Made by a program: the position numbers and the translations under genes. A DNA stretch of 37,423 nt from a virus: positions 1 through 37,423 of IMG/VR virus record IMGVR_UViG_3300046000_001329; one strand, given 5' to 3'. Below, piece after piece: positions 19,670 through 35,269 of the stretch; positions within the stretch are counted from its first letter, which is position 1, and each line of letters opens with the position of its first letter. The notes under the pieces are model-generated. The model was not told the DNA's origin, did no database searches, and was given only the letters and a program-made list of their open reading frames with translations.

Positions 19670-21649
19670 ATGGCGATTTATCGAGGAGCAGGCGGTGCAG
19701 GTGATGCAGTAGCTGACTCAGCAAGTGAAGCTTTATTAGTTCGTGAATTAGCCATTGAAGTACAGGCTGACGCTGATGCTGCAGAGGCTGCAAGAGCTGC
19801 TGCTGTTACTGCTAAGGTAGCTGCAGAGTTAGCTGAGACTAATGCTGAAACTGCAGAGACCAACGCTGAGACTGCCGAGACTAATGCTGAGACTGCACAA
19901 GCTGCCGCTGCTTCTAGTGCTAGTGCCGCATCAACATCTGCAACTAACGCTGCTAACTCTGCTACAGCTGCTCAGACTGCTGAAACAAACGCTGAGACGG
20001 CTGAGACCAATGCAGAGACTGCAGAAACTAATGCAGCAAGTTCTGCTTCAGCTGCATCTACTTCAGCAAGCAACGCTTCTAGTTCTGCCAGTGCTGCAAG
20101 TACATCAGCTACGAATGCCTCTAACAGTGCTACAGCAGCTTCTGGTTCAGCTTCTACAGCCTCAACTCAAGCTACTAATGCTGCTAGTTCAGCTTCTGCA
20201 GCGTCTACTTCTGCAACCAATGCAAGTAACTCAGCTACATCAGCAAGTACATCAGCATCTACTGCTACAACACAAGCTGGTATAGCAACTACTCAAGCTA
20301 CTAACGCATCGTCATCAGCAACAGCTGCACAGACTGCAGAAACCAATGCTGAGACAGCAGAGACTAACGCAGCTGCTTCTGCAAGTGCAGCATCAACTTC
20401 TGCAAGCAACGCTTCCACATCAGCAACCAATGCAAGTAACAGTGCTAGTGCAGCATCAACAAGTGCTACCAATGCTTCTAACTCTGCTAGTGCTGCAGCT
20501 ACTTCTGCAACCAACGCAGCCAATAGTGCTACTGCTGCTGCTGCTTCAGCTGCCTCTATAAATCCTGCAAGCATTGTAATAACAGGTGGTTCTATCAATG
20601 GAACTACTGTTGGTGCTACTACTCCTTCTACTGGTGCATTTACTACTTTATCTGCAACTGGAGTAGCTACAGTATCTGCTGGCTCTGTTTCTGCACCAGC
20701 TATTACTACTTCTGGCGATACTAATACAGGTATATTCTTCCCAGCAGCCGATACTATTGCCTTTACAGAGGGTGGTACTGAGTCAATAAGGATTACATCG
20801 GCTGGTGATGTAGGTATTGGTACAAGTAGTCCCGCTGCAAAATTAGATGTAAATGGATTAGCTAACGCAACTTGCTTGAAGGCAAGTGGAACAGCATCAG
20901 GAAGTTTTGCTGCAAATTCTTGGTTTGCTCAAAATGAAGGAAGCAGTATTAGTCGTGTTTATTATTGTGGCGCTAATACATCAACATATGGAATTTTACA
21001 AGAATATGCAGCTTATTCTAACGGGACTCCAGCAATAACTCGTTATTCAACTAGCGATGTTCAAATATTCTATACCAACGGCTCAGAGCGTATGCGTATT
21101 GACTCTAGTGGTAACTTGCTAGTGGGGACTACGAGTGCATTAGGCAAATTAACTGTTTCAACTACTGCTTCTGATACTGTAACTGCTTCATTTGCTAACA
21201 CAAGTGCAAGTCCTTATGGTGTTTTAGTAGATTTTACAAGCGACCCTAACAACGGTACAAATTATGTTTTTAAATCTAGACTAATTAACAACACCAACAT
21301 ATACACAATATTTTCTAATGGAACAACATCTGCTCGTTCTGATGAGCGTTTTAAGAAAAATATAGAAACTACAAGAGATGGTTACGCTGAAGATTTAAGT
21401 AAGTTAAGAGTTGTCAAATACCATTGGCACAATATTGATGACAAAGCACCAAAAGAACTTGGTTTTATTGCCCAAGAAGTTGAGCAAGTATTTCCAAATT
21501 TAATTTCTACAGAAATGAATGATGATGGTATTGATGTTAAAAGCATTAAAACATCTGTTTTTATTCCAATGCTTGTAAAAGCTATTCAAGAACAACAAGC
21601 CATCATTACAGACCTTAAATCAAGAATTGAAACTTTAGAAAGTAAGTAA
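19670..21649 (+). CDS. Long tail fibre with S74 intramolecular chaperone
   Basis: 659 aa in three parts. The N-terminal 40 residues precede a long low-complexity stalk (about residues 45-300) built of E-T-N-A-E-T-A and S-A-S-A-A-S-T-S-A-T-N-A units, a probable trimeric coiled rod. A beta-rich section follows (ITGGSINGTTVGATTPSTGA, GNLLVGTTSALGKLTV). The last 103 residues are a Peptidase_S74 chaperone starting at Ser557 (SDERFKKNIETTRDG, KELGFIAQEVEQVFP) and closing in a coiled coil. S74 domains trimerise the fibre and then cleave themselves off at that serine. It is the most likely host-recognition fibre. Confidence 0.92.
   Translation: MAIYRGAGGAGDAVADSASEALLVRELAIEVQADADAAEAARAAAVTAKVAAELAETNAETAETNAETAETNAETAQAAAASSASAASTSATNAANSATAAQTAETNAETAETNAETAETNAASSASAASTSASNASSSASAASTSATNASNSATAASGSASTASTQATNAASSASAASTSATNASNSATSASTSASTATTQAGIATTQATNASSSATAAQTAETNAETAETNAAASASAASTSASNASTSATNASNSASAASTSATNASNSASAAATSATNAANSATAAAASAASINPASIVITGGSINGTTVGATTPSTGAFTTLSATGVATVSAGSVSAPAITTSGDTNTGIFFPAADTIAFTEGGTESIRITSAGDVGIGTSSPAAKLDVNGLANATCLKASGTASGSFAANSWFAQNEGSSISRVYYCGANTSTYGILQEYAAYSNGTPAITRYSTSDVQIFYTNGSERMRIDSSGNLLVGTTSALGKLTVSTTASDTVTASFANTSASPYGVLVDFTSDPNNGTNYVFKSRLINNTNIYTIFSNGTTSARSDERFKKNIETTRDGYAEDLSKLRVVKYHWHNIDDKAPKELGFIAQEVEQVFPNLISTEMNDDGIDVKSIKTSVFIPMLVKAIQEQQAIITDLKSRIETLESK
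19840..20560 (+). repeat. Low-complexity repeats within the tail fibre gene
   Basis: Degenerate units such as ACTGCAGAGACCAACGC and AGTGCTGCATCAACATCTGC recur dozens of times in frame and encode Ala/Ser/Thr/Asn/Glu-rich heptad-like blocks. Such repeats expand and contract easily, so fibre length may vary between relatives and assembly here could be collapsed. Confidence 0.85.
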
Positions 21650-22195
21650 TTGAAACCATCCCTAACCCAAGCAGAAGTAAAAGAACTGTTTGATTACAGG
21701 GATGGTGATTTGTTTTGGAAAGCTAGACCTAGGTCTGATTTCAAATCTGATTTAACTTTTAAACAATGGAATCCAAAACATATTGGTAAAAAAGCAGGCA
21801 CTTTTTCTAATAGTCATGCATCTGTTTCAATAAATAAACACCATTATCAATTGCATAGGATAATTTTTCTTTGGCATCATGGATATTTAGGAGAAATAAT
21901 TGACCATATTGATTGCAATCCTAAAAACAATAATATTGAAAACCTAAGAATTGCAACTCATAAGCAAAACATAAGAAATTCAGGTATGTATTCACATAAC
22001 AAAAGTGGTATTAAAGGGGTTTGTTGGAATACTGCAAAGAAAAAGTGGATGGTACAAATTAAGGTTAATTCAAAGCAAACATACATAGGTCTGTATGATG
22101 ATATTGAATTGGCTGATTTAGTTGCTCAAGAGGCTAGAAATAAATATCATGGGCATTTTGCAAATCATGGAAAGGGAGCATCAAATGGAATTTAA
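21650..22195 (+). CDS. HNH homing endonuclease next to the tail fibre
   Basis: 181 aa with a TTG start directly after the tail fibre stop. HNH core: YQLHRIIFLWHHGYLGEIIDH, then NNIENLRIATHKQNIRNSG, then an AP2-like segment (SGIKGVCWNTAKKKWMVQIK, TYIGLYDD) and a C-terminus AHF-type (YHGHFANHGKGASNGI). It is the same architecture as the HNH gene at 2639-3121, sharing LHRI-IF, HGYL and IDH positions and the NHG end. It sits between two phage genes without breaking either, and overlaps the next gene by 11 bases. There is no clear ribosome site; translation may rely on coupling. Confidence 0.88.
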   Translation: MKPSLTQAEVKELFDYRDGDLFWKARPRSDFKSDLTFKQWNPKHIGKKAGTFSNSHASVSINKHHYQLHRIIFLWHHGYLGEIIDHIDCNPKNNNIENLRIATHKQNIRNSGMYSHNKSGIKGVCWNTAKKKWMVQIKVNSKQTYIGLYDDIELADLVAQEARNKYHGHFANHGKGASNGI

Positions 22196-23405: not shown

Positions 23406-23477
23406 ATGAACATGAAACATTCTGAAGAGACTAAATTAAAAATGTCTTTAGCTAGACAAGGTAAAAGGAACTTATGA
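23406..23477 (+). pseudogene. NUMOD3-like fragment, possible homing-endonuclease remnant
   Basis: A 23-codon frame reading MNMKHSEETKLKMSLARQGK then RNL. KHSEETK-x-K-x-S-x-A-x-x-G-K is the NUMOD3 DNA-binding motif normally found in the C-part of GIY-YIG or HNH homing endonucleases. Here it stands alone, with no catalytic domain. It overlaps the next gene as ATGA and may now only serve as a leader peptide. Confidence 0.4.
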
Positions 23478-24121
23478 ACTATATTTCTTTGGTTAATGAT
23501 GTATTAATAAGACTTAGAGAGACAGAGGTATCTTCTGTCAATGATAACGCTTATTCTAAACTAATAGCTAAGTTTGTCAATGATTCTAAAAGAATGGTTG
23601 AAGATGCTTACAACTGGAATGCTTTGTCAGATACACTGTCTGCTGTAACAGGTGCAGACATATTTAACTATGTTTTAGTGGGTTCAGGACAAAGATTCCG
23701 TGTTATTGATGTCTTAAACGACACAAGCGATACAATCCTTTACAACGCACCAACCAGATACATGAACCAACAGTTCTTGTTATCGTCAAGCAGTAAAGGC
23801 TCTCCTCACTACTATAACTTTAACGGTACAGATTCTAACGGAGATACACAGGTTGATTTATTCCCTATTCCGAATGGTGTGTACAATATCCGCTTTAACA
23901 TCATTAAACCTCAAGTAGCATTATCTGCAGATGCTGATAGTGTTCTAGTACCTTCAGAGCCAATCGTTATGTTAGCTTATGCTAAGGCATTAGCAGAGCG
24001 TGGTGAAGACGGTGGACTAGCTTCTAGCGAGGCTTATGGCTTATATAAAACATCATTAGCAGACGCTATTGCTTTAGAGTCTGGTCGTTACATTGAAGAA
24101 TCACAATGGGATGCTATCTAA
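23474..24121 (+). CDS. Tail adaptor / tubular protein A-type
   Basis: 215 aa. Starts MNYISLVNDVLIRLRETEVS with a helix bundle (IAKFVNDSKRMVEDAYNWNA) and a C-terminal helix rich in Ala and Glu (AYAKALAERGEDGGLASSEA). This is the layout of the T7 gp11/P22 gp4-type connector that joins the portal to the tail. It lies immediately before the large tail-nozzle protein, as in other podoviruses. AAGGA lies close before the ATG. Confidence 0.82.
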   Translation: MNYISLVNDVLIRLRETEVSSVNDNAYSKLIAKFVNDSKRMVEDAYNWNALSDTLSAVTGADIFNYVLVGSGQRFRVIDVLNDTSDTILYNAPTRYMNQQFLLSSSSKGSPHYYNFNGTDSNGDTQVDLFPIPNGVYNIRFNIIKPQVALSADADSVLVPSEPIVMLAYAKALAERGEDGGLASSEAYGLYKTSLADAIALESGRYIEESQWDAI

Positions 24122-25720
24122 ATGGCAGAGACTCTTGTAACTGGAACGATTGCAGCTCCAGGCTTTTTTGGTCTTAATACTCAAGATTCCTCAGTACAGT
24201 TATCTTCTGGTTTTGCATTAGAGGCTAATAACTGCGTAATCGACCGCTATGGTCGTATTGGTGCTAGACAGGGGTGGACTAAGGTCAATACCACTGCAGC
24301 GTCTACAGGCAACTTTAGAGCTATCTTCGAGGTGTTTAAAGATGACGGCAATGTTGTGTTGTCTGCAGCTAATAATAATATTTATTCAGGCACTACAACT
24401 TTAACTGCATTAGCTGTTCGTAACTCAACTGATACAGGTAACTTAACTTACACTATTACTGATGATAACTGGCAGATTGCTGGTATGCCTTATGACACTG
24501 GAGCAACTCCTTCAGGTCACGCTATCCTAGTACAGTCAGGACATCCTCTATTGGTTTACCATAAGTTAGGTGCTACAGCTCATGCACATACAGGTGCTTA
24601 TGGTTTACAGAGATTAGGCGATATTGCTACTAATCTACCAGGTTCTTACACTGTCACTAGCTTTACTCCGAATGTGGTGATGACAGCATTTGGTCGTGTT
24701 TGGGTAGCTGATATTGCTAACGATAGACAAACAGTTTACTTCAGTGATTTATTAGACCCTACTCAATGGAAGACAGGAACAGCAGGATATTTAGACATTA
24801 GTGAAGTTGTGCCTAACAATGACCCTATTGTTGCTTTAGCTGCTCATAATGGATTCTTAATTATATTCTGTGAGAAGCACATAGTTGTTTATAGTGGTCC
24901 TTCTGACCCTTCAGCTTTAGCATTATCAGACACAATTACTGGTATTGGTTGTATCGCTAGAGACTCTGTAGCATCTATTGGTACAGACTTAATGTTCTTG
25001 TCTTCAACTGGTGTACAGTCTCTACAGCGTGTTATTCAAGAGAAGTCACTACCATTTAGAGATGTGTCTAAGAATGTACGAGATGAGTTATTAACTAATG
25101 TGGCTTCTGAAACATTAAAGAACATTAAAGGTGTTTACTTCCCTACTGATGCTTTTTATTTGTTATCTTTACCCTCTACTGGCTTTACTTATTGTTTTGA
25201 TACAAGAGGTGTGTTAGAGAATGGTGCAGCAAGAACTACTATTTGGAAACAGATTAATCCTACAGCATTCTGTGTAACACAAGATAGACAGTTCTATATT
25301 GGTAAACCAGGATACATCGGTAAGTATAATCTGTATGAAGATGACGGTGCTAAGTATCGTATGTCTTACTTTACTAACTACTTTGACTTTGAATCTGCTA
25401 CTACTAACAAGATTCTAAAGCGTATCAATGTAACTGCTATTGGTGGTTCTAATCAACCTATCGCTGTTAAATGGGGCTATAATTACACTCGTAACTACTT
25501 CTCTCGTGGTATTACATTACAGAGAGTTGAAGTATTTGAATACGGTACTGCAGAATATAACATTGCAACATACACTAATGGTATTGCGTTAGATATAGCA
25601 AAGATTCCAGCTTCTGGTTCAGGAACAGTAATACAGATTGGATTTGAATCAGACATTGATGGTACACCATTATCAATACAGAAAATCGATTTTTTCCTTA
25701 AACAGGGAAAGACACTTTAA
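24122..25720 (+). CDS. Tail nozzle / stabilisation protein (tubular protein B-type)
   Basis: 532 aa, beta-rich throughout. The N-terminus (GFFGLNTQDSSVQLSSGFAL, EANNCVIDRYGRIGARQGW) is characteristic of the P22 gp10-like stabilisation / tail tubular B family: proteins that form the hexameric beta-propeller nozzle below the adaptor. Later segments (VWVADIANDRQTVYFSDLLD, HNGFLIIFCEKHIVVYSGPS, LMFLSSTGVQSLQRV) look like propeller blades. It follows the adaptor directly (one-base gap or none). Confidence 0.87.
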   Translation: MAETLVTGTIAAPGFFGLNTQDSSVQLSSGFALEANNCVIDRYGRIGARQGWTKVNTTAASTGNFRAIFEVFKDDGNVVLSAANNNIYSGTTTLTALAVRNSTDTGNLTYTITDDNWQIAGMPYDTGATPSGHAILVQSGHPLLVYHKLGATAHAHTGAYGLQRLGDIATNLPGSYTVTSFTPNVVMTAFGRVWVADIANDRQTVYFSDLLDPTQWKTGTAGYLDISEVVPNNDPIVALAAHNGFLIIFCEKHIVVYSGPSDPSALALSDTITGIGCIARDSVASIGTDLMFLSSTGVQSLQRVIQEKSLPFRDVSKNVRDELLTNVASETLKNIKGVYFPTDAFYLLSLPSTGFTYCFDTRGVLENGAARTTIWKQINPTAFCVTQDRQFYIGKPGYIGKYNLYEDDGAKYRMSYFTNYFDFESATTNKILKRINVTAIGGSNQPIAVKWGYNYTRNYFSRGITLQRVEVFEYGTAEYNIATYTNGIALDIAKIPASGSGTVIQIGFESDIDGTPLSIQKIDFFLKQGKTL

Positions 25721-25732
25721 AGGAGTTATATT

Positions 25733-26419
25733 TTGTCAAACTATACAAAGGCAACAAACTTTGCCACTAAAGACACACTACCTAGTGGTGACGCTGGTAA
25801 GATTGTTAAAGGCACAGAGATAGATAACGAGTTTAATTCTATTTCAGGTGCTATCAGTTCTAAAGCTGACTTAGCTTCTCCTACATTTACAGGAACTCCT
25901 GCAGGTCCTACAGCTACTGCTGGTTCTAGTACAACACAATTAGCTACTACAGCTTTTGTTACAGTTGCTTTAGCTGCGGTTTATCCTGTAGGTTCTATCT
26001 ACATTAATGCTACTAGTGCATCTAATCCCTCGACTCTTTTAGGCTTTGGTACTTGGACTGCATTTGGTGCTGGTCGTGTAATGGTTGGTCTAGATGCAGG
26101 AAATGCTGCGTTTGACACAGCTGAAGAAACTGGCGGTTCTGCAGATGCTATTGTTGTATCTCATACTCATACAGCAACATCTACTTCTACTGTAACAGAC
26201 TCTGGACACGGACACACTTATGGTAGAGCTAGTGGTCAATATAGTAATGGTTTTGCTTTCCAAGACCAGTCTTTAAATGGAACAGGCTACACCACTAATA
26301 CAGCAACAACAGGAATTACAGTAGCTACAGCCACGACTAACGCCTCTACAGGTTCTAGTGGCACTAATGCTAACTTACAACCATACATCACGGTAAGAAT
26401 GTGGAAGCGAACAGCGTAA
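25733..26419 (+). CDS. Short tail fibre / collar-domain protein
   Basis: 228 aa with a TTG start; AAAGGAG 7 bases upstream supports it. The N-terminus (DAGKIVKGTEIDNEFNSISG) attaches to the virion. The middle has ATTAFVTVALAAVYPVGSIY and LLGFGTWTAFGAGRVMVGLD, the phage tail-collar motif. The C-part has His-rich repeats (SHTHTATSTSTVTDSGHGHT), which bind metal in trimeric fibres such as T4 gp12, and ends NLQPYITVRMWKRTA. It probably assembles as a trimer and contacts the host surface. Confidence 0.85.
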   Translation: MSNYTKATNFATKDTLPSGDAGKIVKGTEIDNEFNSISGAISSKADLASPTFTGTPAGPTATAGSSTTQLATTAFVTVALAAVYPVGSIYINATSASNPSTLLGFGTWTAFGAGRVMVGLDAGNAAFDTAEETGGSADAIVVSHTHTATSTSTVTDSGHGHTYGRASGQYSNGFAFQDQSLNGTGYTTNTATTGITVATATTNASTGSSGTNANLQPYITVRMWKRTA

Positions 26420-26450: not shown

Positions 26451-27308
26451 ATGAATATTATTGAACAACCTAGATTTGAGCTAAGTAGTGCAAGAACCGA
26501 AGAAAAAATACAGGTTATTGAGGCTGAGTTTTTAAAGCAGAAGCAAGTAGACTGTCCTGTTGTTCATAGATTTGGTCCTAATATTTATATTAGAGAAGTA
26601 ACACTACCAACTGGTTCTTTCTCTATTGGACACTATCAAACAACCGTACATTTAAACATTATGTTAACTGGTAAAGTAACGATGGTCAATGAGGATGGAA
26701 GTAAAACAGCTCTTGTAGCTCCTCAAACATTTGTTTCTGGACCTGGGCGTAAAGTTGGATATATTGAAGAGACTGTTGTTTGGCAGAATGTTTATTCTAC
26801 AACCGAGACTGATGTTGAAAAGCTTGAAGAAATGTTTTTAAATAAAAGTATTACTTGGCAGGAACATCAAAAAGCTAACGAATTACTACTAACTTTTGAT
26901 AATAAAGAAGACATCAAAGACTATTATAAAGCCATTTCTGAGTATGGGTTTACAGAAGAAGTTGTCCGTATGCAGTCTGAAAACACAGAAGACCAAATAG
27001 ATTTACCTTTTGGAAACTATAAAATGACGGTGGCTGACTCAAAGATTGAAGGTAAAGGTGTGTTTGCTACAGGTAATATTATTGAAGGTGAAGTTATTGC
27101 ACCTGCAAGAATAAATGGTAAAAGAACACCAGCAGGAAGATATACAAACCATGCTCGGCATCCTAATGCTGTTATGGTTTTAAAAAACAACAACGACATT
27201 GATTTAGTTGCTCATACAGAAATCAAAGGATGTCGTGGTGGAAACCTAGGTGAAGAAATCACTATAGATTATAGACAAGCATTGAGTTTATCTTTAAGGA
27301 GTAATTAA
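26451..27308 (+). CDS. Cupin-SET domain fusion (putative protein lysine methyltransferase)
   Basis: 285 aa in two parts. Residues 40-120 form a cupin-like barrel (GHYQTTVHLNIMLTGKVTM, then VAPQTFVSGPGRKVGYIEE). Residues 188-280 are a SET domain: GKGVFA (201-206), RYTNHARHPNA (230-240, the NHxxxPN cofactor motif), IKGCRGGNLGEEITIDY (258-274, the E-x-x-x-D-Y motif). SET domains transfer a methyl group from S-adenosylmethionine to lysine. A helical linker joins the parts. No ribosome site is seen before the ATG, unlike almost all neighbours. It lies between tail fibre and ejection-protein genes, so it may modify virion proteins or enter the host; both are inference. Confidence 0.83.
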   Translation: MNIIEQPRFELSSARTEEKIQVIEAEFLKQKQVDCPVVHRFGPNIYIREVTLPTGSFSIGHYQTTVHLNIMLTGKVTMVNEDGSKTALVAPQTFVSGPGRKVGYIEETVVWQNVYSTTETDVEKLEEMFLNKSITWQEHQKANELLLTFDNKEDIKDYYKAISEYGFTEEVVRMQSENTEDQIDLPFGNYKMTVADSKIEGKGVFATGNIIEGEVIAPARINGKRTPAGRYTNHARHPNAVMVLKNNNDIDLVAHTEIKGCRGGNLGEEITIDYRQALSLSLRSN

Positions 27309-27309
27309 T

Positions 27310-28383
27310 ATGTCAGGAGTCGCTACCGCTGTAGTAGCAGGTAATGTAATCGGAGGTATGCTATCAGGTAACGCTGCTAAAGACGCAGCTAATACATCCG
27401 CTAATGCTCAAATTGAAGCAGCCAGAATAGCTGCTGAACAATCTAAGTTTAAACCTTTTGGTTTAACAACTAACTTGGGAAGTTCTAACTTTGGATTAGA
27501 CCCATCAGGTAACTTAACAAGTGCTGGTTATACACTAGACCCTAGATTACAAAACCTTCAAACAGGTTTAATGGGCGGGTATGGCGGGCAATTAACCCAA
27601 GCTCAGAATCTAGATACTTCTCAGTTAATGTCTGGTGGACAGAGGTTGATGTCTTTAGGTAATCAATACTTAGCTGCTTCACCAGAGCAGGCAAGTCAAG
27701 ATTGGTTACAAAATCAAAGAAACCTTTTAGCTCCTGTACAAGAACAAGAATTAGCGGGTCTTCGTAATAGAACATATCAGACAGGTCGTACAGGTCTAGC
27801 TACTGGTGGAACTTCTGCTGGTAACATGGCAGCAACAAACCCTGAGTTTGCAGCTTATTATAATTCACTAGCTAATACAGACAGAACATTAGCAGCTCAA
27901 GCAGATGCCTACGGACAACAAAGAAGTTTATTTGGTCAAAGCCTTCTTACAGGCGGTACTGATGTTGTGGGTAAAGGGTTCGGATTACAAACTTCTGCTT
28001 ACGGTCCTTTAACAACAACTCTAGGTCTTTCAGAAGCTGTTGAAGCACAAGGTCAGTCTCCATTTACTTTGGGTGTTAATTTAGGAGGTAGACAAACACA
28101 AGCTAATCAACTTGGTGCTGGTTTATTAAATAGTGCTTCTCAGAATGCTGCTTTAACACAACAACGAGCTAATTCTTTCAGTCCTTTAGGTACTACGCTT
28201 TCTGGTGTTGCAAATAGTCCGTATATGTCTCAATGGTTTCAAAATACACTTAATCAACCAGGCACACAGACAACCAGCAATACTAACTTAATGTATGACC
28301 AATACGGTCAGAATCCACAATATAATCCAGGTGCATCGTATACTTCTAATTGGTATGGCGGCACTGGTGGAATGGGAGATTAA
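27310..28383 (+). CDS. Internal virion / ejection protein 1
   Basis: 357 aa. The N-terminus has a glycine-zipper membrane segment (ATAVVAGNVIGGMLSGNAAK) followed by AANTSANAQIEAARIAAEQS, the usual start of podovirus DNA-ejection proteins. The remainder is rich in G, Q, N, S and T. The three genes 27310-31715 occupy the place of T7 gp14-16 or P22 gp7/16/20. They would be ejected ahead of the DNA to span the cell envelope. AAGGAG precedes the ATG. Confidence 0.8.
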   Translation: MSGVATAVVAGNVIGGMLSGNAAKDAANTSANAQIEAARIAAEQSKFKPFGLTTNLGSSNFGLDPSGNLTSAGYTLDPRLQNLQTGLMGGYGGQLTQAQNLDTSQLMSGGQRLMSLGNQYLAASPEQASQDWLQNQRNLLAPVQEQELAGLRNRTYQTGRTGLATGGTSAGNMAATNPEFAAYYNSLANTDRTLAAQADAYGQQRSLFGQSLLTGGTDVVGKGFGLQTSAYGPLTTTLGLSEAVEAQGQSPFTLGVNLGGRQTQANQLGAGLLNSASQNAALTQQRANSFSPLGTTLSGVANSPYMSQWFQNTLNQPGTQTTSNTNLMYDQYGQNPQYNPGASYTSNWYGGTGGMGD

Positions 28384-28384
28384 T

Positions 28385-29548
28385 ATGGCACAACAAGATA
28401 TCGTAGGTAATTTATTTGGTGTTACACCGCAAATATATGAGCAGTCTCAAGCTGACAAAGCAAGACAACAAGCTCTTCAATATGCTCAACTTGACCCTCA
28501 ACAACAATCACAGTTTGCATTGTATTCTGCTGGTCAAAACATTCCTAAAGCTGTTGGTGGCTTACTAGGTATTGAAGACCCTCAAATGCAGTTAGTAAGT
28601 CGTACTAATCAGCTAGTACAACAAATCGGTGTTGATACTCCTGAGAAGCTACGAACATTAGCTGGTGAGTTACAGAAACTTCCTGGTGGGGCTAGTTTAG
28701 CTACACAAGCAATTGAGAGAGCTAATAAAATGCTAGAATCACAAGCAACTGTAACAGCTAAAACGAGAGAACAGCTACCAACTATTGCTAAACTACAGTC
28801 TTATAGACAATCTTTAGTAGCACAGCTAGGTCCTAACGACCCTCGTGTTAAAGAAGTTGACGCTATCATAAGAGCTGAAGGCGAAGGTAAAGGAACTAAA
28901 ATTGTAATGCCAGCAGGTGAAACAGAAGTATCTAAAGTTGTTGGTAAAGGTGTCGGTGATAAGATTCTTTCAACAGCAGCTGCGGGTGAAGCAGGAGCAG
29001 ACAACCTAACTAAAATTGATGAAACATTAAATGAACTACGAACAAACAAAGCATTTACTGGCTCATTCGTTGAGATACAAACAAACTTAGCAAAAATTCA
29101 AGCTAAATTTGCTGGAGACACAAAGGCAGGTAAACAAGTTACTGATACAGAATATTTAGATGCTTTACTAGGTTCTGATGTATTCCCTATGATTAATTCT
29201 TTAGGTATTGGTGCAAAGGGTCTTGATACCCCAGCTGAAAGAGAGTTTTTGCGTAAAGTAATGACAGGTACAGTTTCTCTTGAGCGTGATACTTTAATTA
29301 AACTAACAGAAACAAGAAGAAATATTGCTGAACGAGCTGTTAAAAAGTATAATAAAGCAGTTGAGAATGGTGAGTTAAACGAATATTTTAGATTAAAAGG
29401 TATTAAACCTACAACTATTAATATACCAAAGACAGTTGTTGACCCAGGTGCTGATTATGACAAATATGTTGATTACATAAAAAACCAGGGTAAAACACCT
29501 AAAACTAGAGAACAGTATATTCAAGACAAGACAAACCTAAAAGGATAA
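28385..29548 (+). CDS. Internal virion / ejection protein 2
   Basis: 387 aa from the ATG at 28385 (MAQQDIVGNLFGVTPQIYEQ), which has GGGAG upstream; the longer open frame reading back into the previous gene is rejected. It is helical and Q/A-rich (QADKARQQALQYAQLDPQQQ), with a middle KLQSYRQSLVAQLGPNDPRV and a tail of lysine-rich helices. No enzyme motif, such as a transglycosylase, is visible. Position and composition support an ejection-protein role. Confidence 0.75.
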   Translation: MAQQDIVGNLFGVTPQIYEQSQADKARQQALQYAQLDPQQQSQFALYSAGQNIPKAVGGLLGIEDPQMQLVSRTNQLVQQIGVDTPEKLRTLAGELQKLPGGASLATQAIERANKMLESQATVTAKTREQLPTIAKLQSYRQSLVAQLGPNDPRVKEVDAIIRAEGEGKGTKIVMPAGETEVSKVVGKGVGDKILSTAAAGEAGADNLTKIDETLNELRTNKAFTGSFVEIQTNLAKIQAKFAGDTKAGKQVTDTEYLDALLGSDVFPMINSLGIGAKGLDTPAEREFLRKVMTGTVSLERDTLIKLTETRRNIAERAVKKYNKAVENGELNEYFRLKGIKPTTINIPKTVVDPGADYDKYVDYIKNQGKTPKTREQYIQDKTNLKG

Positions 29549-33361: not shown

Positions 33362-35269
33362 TTATATTTCGCATCCGCCAGCGGAGCAACTAAGAGTTTG
33401 GACACCTTCCACATTGTCGTCATACTCTTTAAATGTAGCCCAATCAATGTCAGCAGGTTGTAAAGCTTTTAACTTAGCATACTCTTCTGCGTTAACCTCT
33501 TCATAAGGGGCTTGCTTGTATGTCCCTCCGTCCATCGGTAGGAAAGACACGCCAGTAACCTCATCAAAGTGTTCAAACACCCATGCTCCAACTTCCATCC
33601 ATTCATTCTCTTTAACAGAGATAGTCACAGACGGCTTATGTTCGCAATAGTGACGCTGAAACAATAACCACAACTTCAAGTGTTGCACAGCAGTTAAGTC
33701 TTCACGCAACAAAGCACCGTCAGCCACAGCAACAGGGAAACTAAATACTGTTGTTGATTCAGGCTTCATCACACACGGCTCTGCCACAAATCCAGCTTGA
33801 ATCATAAACTGTGTTAAAGGGTCTTTGTTATCACCTCTAACACGACGAATATAGTATTGGCTATGCTGAGGATGAATGCCAGAGGCAGTACTACAAAGCT
33901 GCGACACTGTACCTTCGGGTTTAACAGCTGTAACAGCCACACTCTGGTTAATTCCAATGATAGCAGCAAATTCAGCATTAGTAGTAACAGCAACATCTTT
34001 CAACCTTTCTAGTCTAGCTGGTAACTGAGGGTCATCAGGGTTATTCAACAGTGCGTTATCACAGATACCTGTCATAGACACACCTAGTAGTGCTTCTTCT
34101 TCTGTATTCTTTTGCCATACTTTACGCAAGTAAGGGAAGTCTGTTAACGACGCTTGAAAAGTTCCAAGGATAGATGCCACACGAATCTTATGCTCCAAAG
34201 AATCCATAGTGTCATCACTGCGAACAATACAACTAGAAAGATTACAGAACTGATAAGGACGCAAGATAATCTCGCTGCAAGGGTTTGTACCAAAATCGTA
34301 TGAAGCGTCTCTTCTTCCATTCTTTTCAGCTTGTCTCTGTGATGCGTCACGACTAAATATTCCTCTCTCGCCTGAATGAGACTCATAGATACTTGTCCAC
34401 TCACGCATAAATTGACCAATGTACGGTTTCTCTTTATAGACAGCAGAGTTATTAGCTAATGCTCTTTGTCCTTGACCATCCCACCAATTACCTGCTTTAG
34501 CATGAGCCATCTTGTCATCAGACAAGTCAGACAAGCTAATCATGGCACTGCGTCGTACTCCGCCCACAACAACAACTTCCCCGATTTTGCAGAGAATATC
34601 ATGGCATTCGAGTGATGATAAGCGACGACCAACTGCTCCTTTGAACTTGGTAACACAAAACTTATAAAGTTCTTCCAAAGGTCCAGGTCCAGACGCTCTT
34701 CCACCAAAGGTTTTAAGTCTAGCTCCTGCAGGTCGAACCTTTGATACATCGAACCTTGGAATCTCACCAGAATATAAAAGAGCCAAGAGCTGTCTAAGCG
34801 ATTTTGCCCATCCTTCTTTAGAATCCGACACACTAATAGTAGTCTGACTATCAAACAACTGCTCTGGCACTTCAGGTAATTTAGTAACATATTGTTGCTC
34901 CACTGAGAATCCTACACCTGTACCACAGAGAAGGATGTACATAGCTTCATCAAAAGCTTTAGGGTCATCAATAGGTAAATATGAACAGTTAAATGCTGCC
35001 ACATTCTGACGCTCTAAGGCTGGACCTGCAGTCATGATAGCTCTCATTGACGGCATCACTGCTAAATCGTTTACTGCTAGTTCTAACTCTGCACGAAGTT
35101 CTTTAGTTAATGTGTAGTTCTGCTTTGTCTGTAGATGCTTTTCCATGAAGTCAAAGTATCTTGCTACTGTTTCATTCCAGTGTTCACGACGACCTTCATT
35201 GTCAATGTATCGACTGTAGCGACTTTTTGCAATGAAATTATTATAAGGACTCATTGTGTATTTATTCAT
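33362..35269 (-). CDS. nrdJ: Ribonucleotide reductase, class II monomeric, adenosylcobalamin-dependent
   Basis: 635 aa. It reduces ribonucleoside triphosphates to deoxy forms using a coenzyme B12 radical. Active-site residues match the Lactobacillus leichmannii enzyme: Cys95 (119 there), Asn329, Cys331 and Glu333 (406, 408, 410), Cys342 (419) and the C-terminal pair Cys628 and Cys633 in CSAGGCEI (731, 736); the spacings 11 and 5 are identical. AVKPEGTVSQLC is the conserved substrate loop. The gene is intact, with no intron or HNH. It is shorter than the bacterial enzyme, as phage versions often are. It needs host B12 and thioredoxin-type reductant. Confidence 0.95.
   Translation of the reverse strand: MNKYTMSPYNNFIAKSRYSRYIDNEGRREHWNETVARYFDFMEKHLQTKQNYTLTKELRAELELAVNDLAVMPSMRAIMTAGPALERQNVAAFNCSYLPIDDPKAFDEAMYILLCGTGVGFSVEQQYVTKLPEVPEQLFDSQTTISVSDSKEGWAKSLRQLLALLYSGEIPRFDVSKVRPAGARLKTFGGRASGPGPLEELYKFCVTKFKGAVGRRLSSLECHDILCKIGEVVVVGGVRRSAMISLSDLSDDKMAHAKAGNWWDGQGQRALANNSAVYKEKPYIGQFMREWTSIYESHSGERGIFSRDASQRQAEKNGRRDASYDFGTNPCSEIILRPYQFCNLSSCIVRSDDTMDSLEHKIRVASILGTFQASLTDFPYLRKVWQKNTEEEALLGVSMTGICDNALLNNPDDPQLPARLERLKDVAVTTNAEFAAIIGINQSVAVTAVKPEGTVSQLCSTASGIHPQHSQYYIRRVRGDNKDPLTQFMIQAGFVAEPCVMKPESTTVFSFPVAVADGALLREDLTAVQHLKLWLLFQRHYCEHKPSVTISVKENEWMEVGAWVFEHFDEVTGVSFLPMDGGTYKQAPYEEVNAEEYAKLKALQPADIDWATFKEYDDNVEGVQTLSCSAGGCEI

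Follow-up and report, generated by a model that had tools for sequence, protein, structure and literature searches.

A reduced SET domain fused to a tail-module cupin in a short-tailed phage

Here we describe a phage protein of 285 residues in which a helical linker joins a cupin barrel to a C-terminal SET domain, encoded in a 37,423-base window that comprises an entire virus record. The SET fold serves to methylate lysines of proteins, and the most economical reading, which we favor tentatively and at a little under an even chance, is that a virion-module cupin holds a SET lysine methyltransferase that acts on a virion partner. Homologues already sit in databases as 'SET domain containing protein', as 'hypothetical protein', under a structure-derived name or in a PHROG of unknown function; what is new here is the fusion of a reduced SET domain to a phage tail-module cupin. 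The open-access library we searched yielded no publication about SET proteins of phages, and hardly anything has been explored of how phage SET enzymes might methylate lysines in phage or bacterial proteins.

An earlier note on this DNA had proposed a cupin barrel joined to a SET domain in a reading frame at 26451-27308. A frame with exactly those ends lies on the plus strand, and both folds are backed by profiles and by confident AlphaFold models, giving the following layout:

26451-27308, plus strand: cupin-SET fusion gene (285 aa, ATG start, without a Shine-Dalgarno sequence; PHROG 34170, E 3.4e-89)
26541-26810, plus strand: cupin-like (RmlC jelly-roll) domain, about residues 31-120 (PHROG 12032/24280; AlphaFold strands 37-115; Foldseek matches to PDB cupins)
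26814-26978, plus strand: helical linker, residues 122-176 (AlphaFold helices; comparison of relatives L283 and L285)
27006-27278, plus strand: mini-SET domain without the SET-I segment, about residues 186-276 (Pfam, profile, AlphaFold and Foldseek)
27051-27059, plus strand: GxG motif G201-K-G203, the expected SAM contact (G203 in 76/76 homologues, G201 in 73/76)
27123-27152, plus strand: R-T-P-A-G-R-Y-T-N-H motif, residues 225-234 (G229, N233 and H234 in 76/76; R225, T226 and R230 in 75/76)
27252-27272, plus strand: E-E-I-T-I-D-Y motif, residues 268-274, with the expected catalytic Tyr274 (E269 and Y274 in 75/75 covered)

PHROG 34170, which has no function assigned, matches the whole protein, while the N-terminal half matches PHROGs 12032 ('short tail fibre', E 1.2e-33) and 24280 ('tail fibre adhesin'). 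The full-length AlphaFold model (pLDDT 92.6, pTM 0.86) retrieved both cupins and SET domains in Foldseek, and the fusion is confirmed.

For the SET part, the Pfam match taken alone is weak (PF00856, 22.8 bits against a cut-off of 22.4). A 76-sequence profile compared with the PDB matched the MLL1 SET domain (9e-11), EZH2 (1e-7) and PBCV-1 vSET (1e-7), and a model of the SET part alone (pLDDT 91.1) placed vSET first in Foldseek (3kma, E 1.2e-5, TM 0.65), with EZH2 and MLL1 also at the top, so that structure prediction returned the SET fold that had been proposed. The GKG, NHxxxPN and E-x-x-x-D-Y motifs read from the letters are all present, the second within R-Y-T-N-H...P-N at residues 230-239 and the third running from E269 to Y274. 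Conservation was counted over 76 diverse homologues: G203, G229, N233 and H234 are invariant in all of them, E269 and Y274 in the 75 that cover that region, and G201, R225, T226, R230 and N239 each occur in at least 73 of 76. The SAM-binding motif residues are thus kept across homologues, and profile, fold and conservation together rule out a chance motif match. Every part of the fusion is under strong purifying selection, with median dN/dS values of 0.056 for the cupin (27 independent close pairs), 0.078 for SET (27) and 0.062 for the linker (21), indicating that SET is selected about as strictly as the cupin. Judged from motifs and fold, the SET part is likely a catalytically active lysine methyltransferase that would bind SAM through GxG and NH and use Tyr274 in catalysis.

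This SET domain is a reduced one. The distance from GxG to NH is exactly 30 residues in 76/76 homologues, so the SET-I segment is missing from all of them; compared with MLL1, about 34 residues fewer lie between the two SET halves, where SET-I sits. In most SET enzymes the peptide groove takes its shape from SET-I, but this segment varies among the known ones, and a reduced variant is therefore still compatible with a SET fold. The absence of SET-I nonetheless counts towards a quite unlikely alternative in which the mini-SET no longer acts as an enzyme and either binds SAM or a peptide or forms a structural beta-clip part of the tail. The same alternative is favored by the structural members of the beta-clip class, to which SET folds belong, and by Asp273, which is replaced by Asn or Ser in a third of homologues. 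Against this, the domain is most conserved at its cofactor and catalytic residues, and having Asn in front of the Tyr does not conflict with activity because the Tyr never varies where covered.

The cupin part appears to be a scaffold. Foldseek matched its barrel to many PDB cupins (best 3lag, E 3e-5, TM 0.70 over the target), but the classic 2-His-1-Glu metal site of enzymatic cupins is not present in the domain: H67 alone of the classic motif is broadly kept, and no Glu stands where the motif expects one. The cupin probably has a structural role. Its homology to the PHROG 12032 short tail fibre family (E 1.2e-33) comes with a label that is annotation only; we found no experiment, proteomics or structure behind 'short tail fibre' for this cupin family and no experimental role for the cupin gene in the literature on the related phages X14, P26218, PBR31 and GT1. 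The cupin also matches eight plasmid records, whereas the SET part matches none. The plasmid homologues (NZ_CP039344.1, 48316-48654, and seven more records) are annotated as hypothetical proteins, and their 'plasmids' are 40-56 kb, non-mobilizable, from Acinetobacter and Stenotrophomonas, and possibly phage-plasmids.

Gene order places the fusion among virion genes. The late genes begin with terminase, portal, major head protein, an S74-type fibre, an SU10-type adaptor and an Hc3-like gene, and continue with a Gp10_C tail gene, cupin-SET, three ejection-slot genes and a holin. Those around the fusion are:

23474-24121, plus strand: SU10-type adaptor gene (PF24175)
24122-25720, plus strand: stabilisation/head-closure (Hc3-like) gene (PHROG 578, E 6.7e-13)
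25733-26419, plus strand: tail gene upstream of cupin-SET, with a Gp10_C (baseplate/knob-like) C-terminus (PF21939, E 6e-26; PHROG 6465)
27310-28383, plus strand: P22 gp7-like 'DNA ejection' slot gene downstream of cupin-SET (Rhodoferax phage homologue, E 4e-6; neighbor survey)

The position between fibre and ejection genes given in the earlier note therefore holds, with a Gp10_C-type tail gene before the fusion and, after it, an ejection gene whose Rhodoferax phage homologue belongs to PHROG 598 ('DNA ejection'). Of the genes with enough flank, 124 distinct cupin-SET and 47 cupin-only ones, 108 and 42 respectively are followed directly by a DNA-ejection homologue. The succession of adaptor, Hc3, needle slot, cupin-SET slot and gp7-like gene is that of P22 (gp4, gp10, gp26, gp14, gp7), and it recurs in Rhodoferax phage P26218, Pseudoalteromonas phage PH1, Vibrio phage 234P9 and Thalassomonas phage BA3. 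With its slot defined by synteny, the cupin-SET protein is predicted to be a late, virion-module protein of a short-tailed phage (podovirus). That it instead acts on its own in the cytoplasm, its cupin a dimerisation domain only and without any virion role, would suit the general tendency of cupin folds to form dimers and the purely annotated origin of the 'tail fibre' label; it is highly improbable given that distant podoviruses keep the cupin, with or without SET, in tight synteny with genes for head closure and ejection.

P22 gp14 (PHROG 651, DUF2824) occupies the same slot, between the tail needle and gp7. Homology between it and cupin-SET was rejected (hhalign probability 0.2%). We also considered the idea that gp14 is an acetyltransferase; because Pfam returned DUF2824 only and a PDB search gave one weak, unrelated match, we do not claim a shared 'transferase slot'.

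Several other features of the window's genes were recorded. The tail fibre that bears the peptidase S74 chaperone domain (19670-21649) lies apart from the other tail genes, after the major head protein and before the adaptor, and is directly followed, within the virion block, by a homing-type HNH endonuclease with an AP2 domain (21650-22195). The second ejection-slot gene (28295-29548 if called from the first start codon) shares 89 bases with the gene before it and has no ribosome site; its true start may be further downstream. A ribonucleotide reductase gene on the minus strand (33362-35269, PHROG 367) converges on the late block.

The earlier note had also singled out the missing ribosome site of the cupin-SET gene and suggested low or regulated expression. 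The site is truly absent (no Shine-Dalgarno sequence, duplex energy 0) and most neighboring genes have one, but the absence is not unique to this gene, since the window genes at 28295 and 32135 also score an energy of 0 and many close relatives of the cupin-SET gene have weak sites or none (energies 0 to -3). Being common to relatives and to other genes of the block, it does not bear out low or regulated expression.

We then turn to how the fusion is distributed. Overlapping searches of viral contigs turned up at least 310 relatives for the full-length protein, at least 440 for the SET part and at least 528 for the cupin, and the fetched loci, repeats included, held 264 cupin-SET and 65 cupin-only ORFs; the fusion is widespread among environmental phages. 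Cupin-only homologues fill the same gene slot in other podoviruses and have a shorter tail in place of the linker found in cupin-SET proteins. L283 and L285 have near-identical cupins, yet only one of the two proteins continues into linker and SET, while its partner stops after a short helix-like tail. Mapped onto the cupin tree, the SET label takes 7 changes (3 of them forced by well-supported branches), an exact number that is soft given the few columns in the tree, against 18.6 with shuffled labels; the window's own clade, 35 rows of the tree, keeps SET throughout. SET is enzyme-like and optional, a module with several gains or losses on a scaffold that belongs to the late-gene core. Relocation of SET within cupin-only phages was considered and not adopted, as no SET was found elsewhere in the cupin-only records of L257 and L269 (G005 and G006; ~30 and 38 kb, possibly fragments). 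One contig (L102:325-1158) carries a cupin-SET gene split by frameshifts into three ORFs, a pseudogene or an assembly error that we rejected as a separate gene design.

The named relatives fit this modular picture. The PHROG 12032/24280 proteins of Thalassomonas phage BA3 and Vibrio phages ('short tail fiber protein'/'tail fiber adhesin') share a homologous N-terminal domain and the same slot before 'DNA ejection' but, unlike the window protein, have no SET and a short C-terminal tail. GenBank UOF81456.1 is a homologous cupin-SET protein and A0A6J5PTS6 ('SET domain containing protein') a close structural match; like PHROG 34170, they are catalogued or automatically named, with no function given.

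How, then, might the two domains work together? We propose that the cupin is a core structural barrel in the slot between the head-closure/tail genes and the ejection genes, and that SET, carried on a helical arm, acts as an optional, small lysine methyltransferase. Anchored by the cupin at the tail/ejection apparatus, the enzyme would methylate lysines of a neighboring virion protein during assembly. Of the adjacent products, the first ejection protein seems an unpromising substrate: it has 4 lysines in 357 aa, and it was rejected as a conserved substrate when no conserved lysine was found in it across SET-bearing phages. The second and third ejection proteins, with 34 and 58 lysines, would be better candidates. 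Counting against methylation of a virion protein are the lack of a conserved lysine in the first ejection protein, the purely annotated 'short tail fibre' label of the cupin family, the missing SET-I, the 7 gains or losses of SET and the existence of cupin-only phages. The last two imply that methylation is not generally required for assembly; so patchy a module would suggest a modification useful in some hosts or particles rather than one needed for assembly as such.

The same coming and going of SET on a kept cupin is what a host-dependent accessory function would be expected to show, and the main rival, unlikely but with precedent, is a SET enzyme aimed at a host protein (envelope, transcription or defence), held on the virion through the cupin or made late in infection. 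The precedent lies in PBCV-1 vSET (A612L; PDB 3kma/1n3j), the top solved structural neighbor and, like the window SET, a very small viral SET. vSET differs in coming from a virus of a eukaryote and standing alone, whereas the window SET is fused to a cupin and lacks the SET-I segment; a bacterial host has no H3 histone. vSET is reported to be packaged in virions; it methylates histone H3 K27, and this is circumstantially linked to host shut-down (PMC7019647). In phiKMV-like phages, a predicted acetyltransferase brings about cleavage of the alpha subunit of host RNA polymerase (PMC7552054), a second precedent for a host target. Set against a host target are the location of the cupin-SET gene in the virion block and the retention of SET throughout the window's clade of 35 rows. 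Because the conserved, selected and widespread SET domain is present or absent on one scaffold in sister phages, a ready comparison exists, and the cultured phages Rhodoferax P26218 and Pseudoalteromonas PH1 make cupin-SET function testable.

Finally, the statement that SET methyltransferases are mainly eukaryotic and chlamydial is untrue for phages. Besides the 310-440 relatives of the fusion, viral contigs encode stand-alone mini-SETs of ~100 aa, with similarly short GxG-NH spacing, at no fewer than 574 places; the domain is common in phages, and fusion to a cupin is one of its uses. A broader proposal, possible though rather doubtful, is that minimal SET lysine methyltransferases without SET-I form a phage-wide class acting on bacterial or virion proteins, the podovirus form being exchangeable on a tail/ejection cupin and some infectious particles carrying their own enzyme. 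The mini-SETs of cyanophage P-RSM6 and Pelagibacter phage Kolga resemble the window SET in their compactness, their R-T-P-L-G-G-F-I-N-H-S motif and their short GxG-NH spacing, but are single-domain proteins of ~100 aa with slightly longer spacing and no cupin. Stand-alone SET genes are very common in marine phage contigs, including L341-L420; that of P-RSM6 (L176:2974-3270) adjoins a gp25 baseplate wedge gene, and that of Kolga lies at L174:5965-6270.
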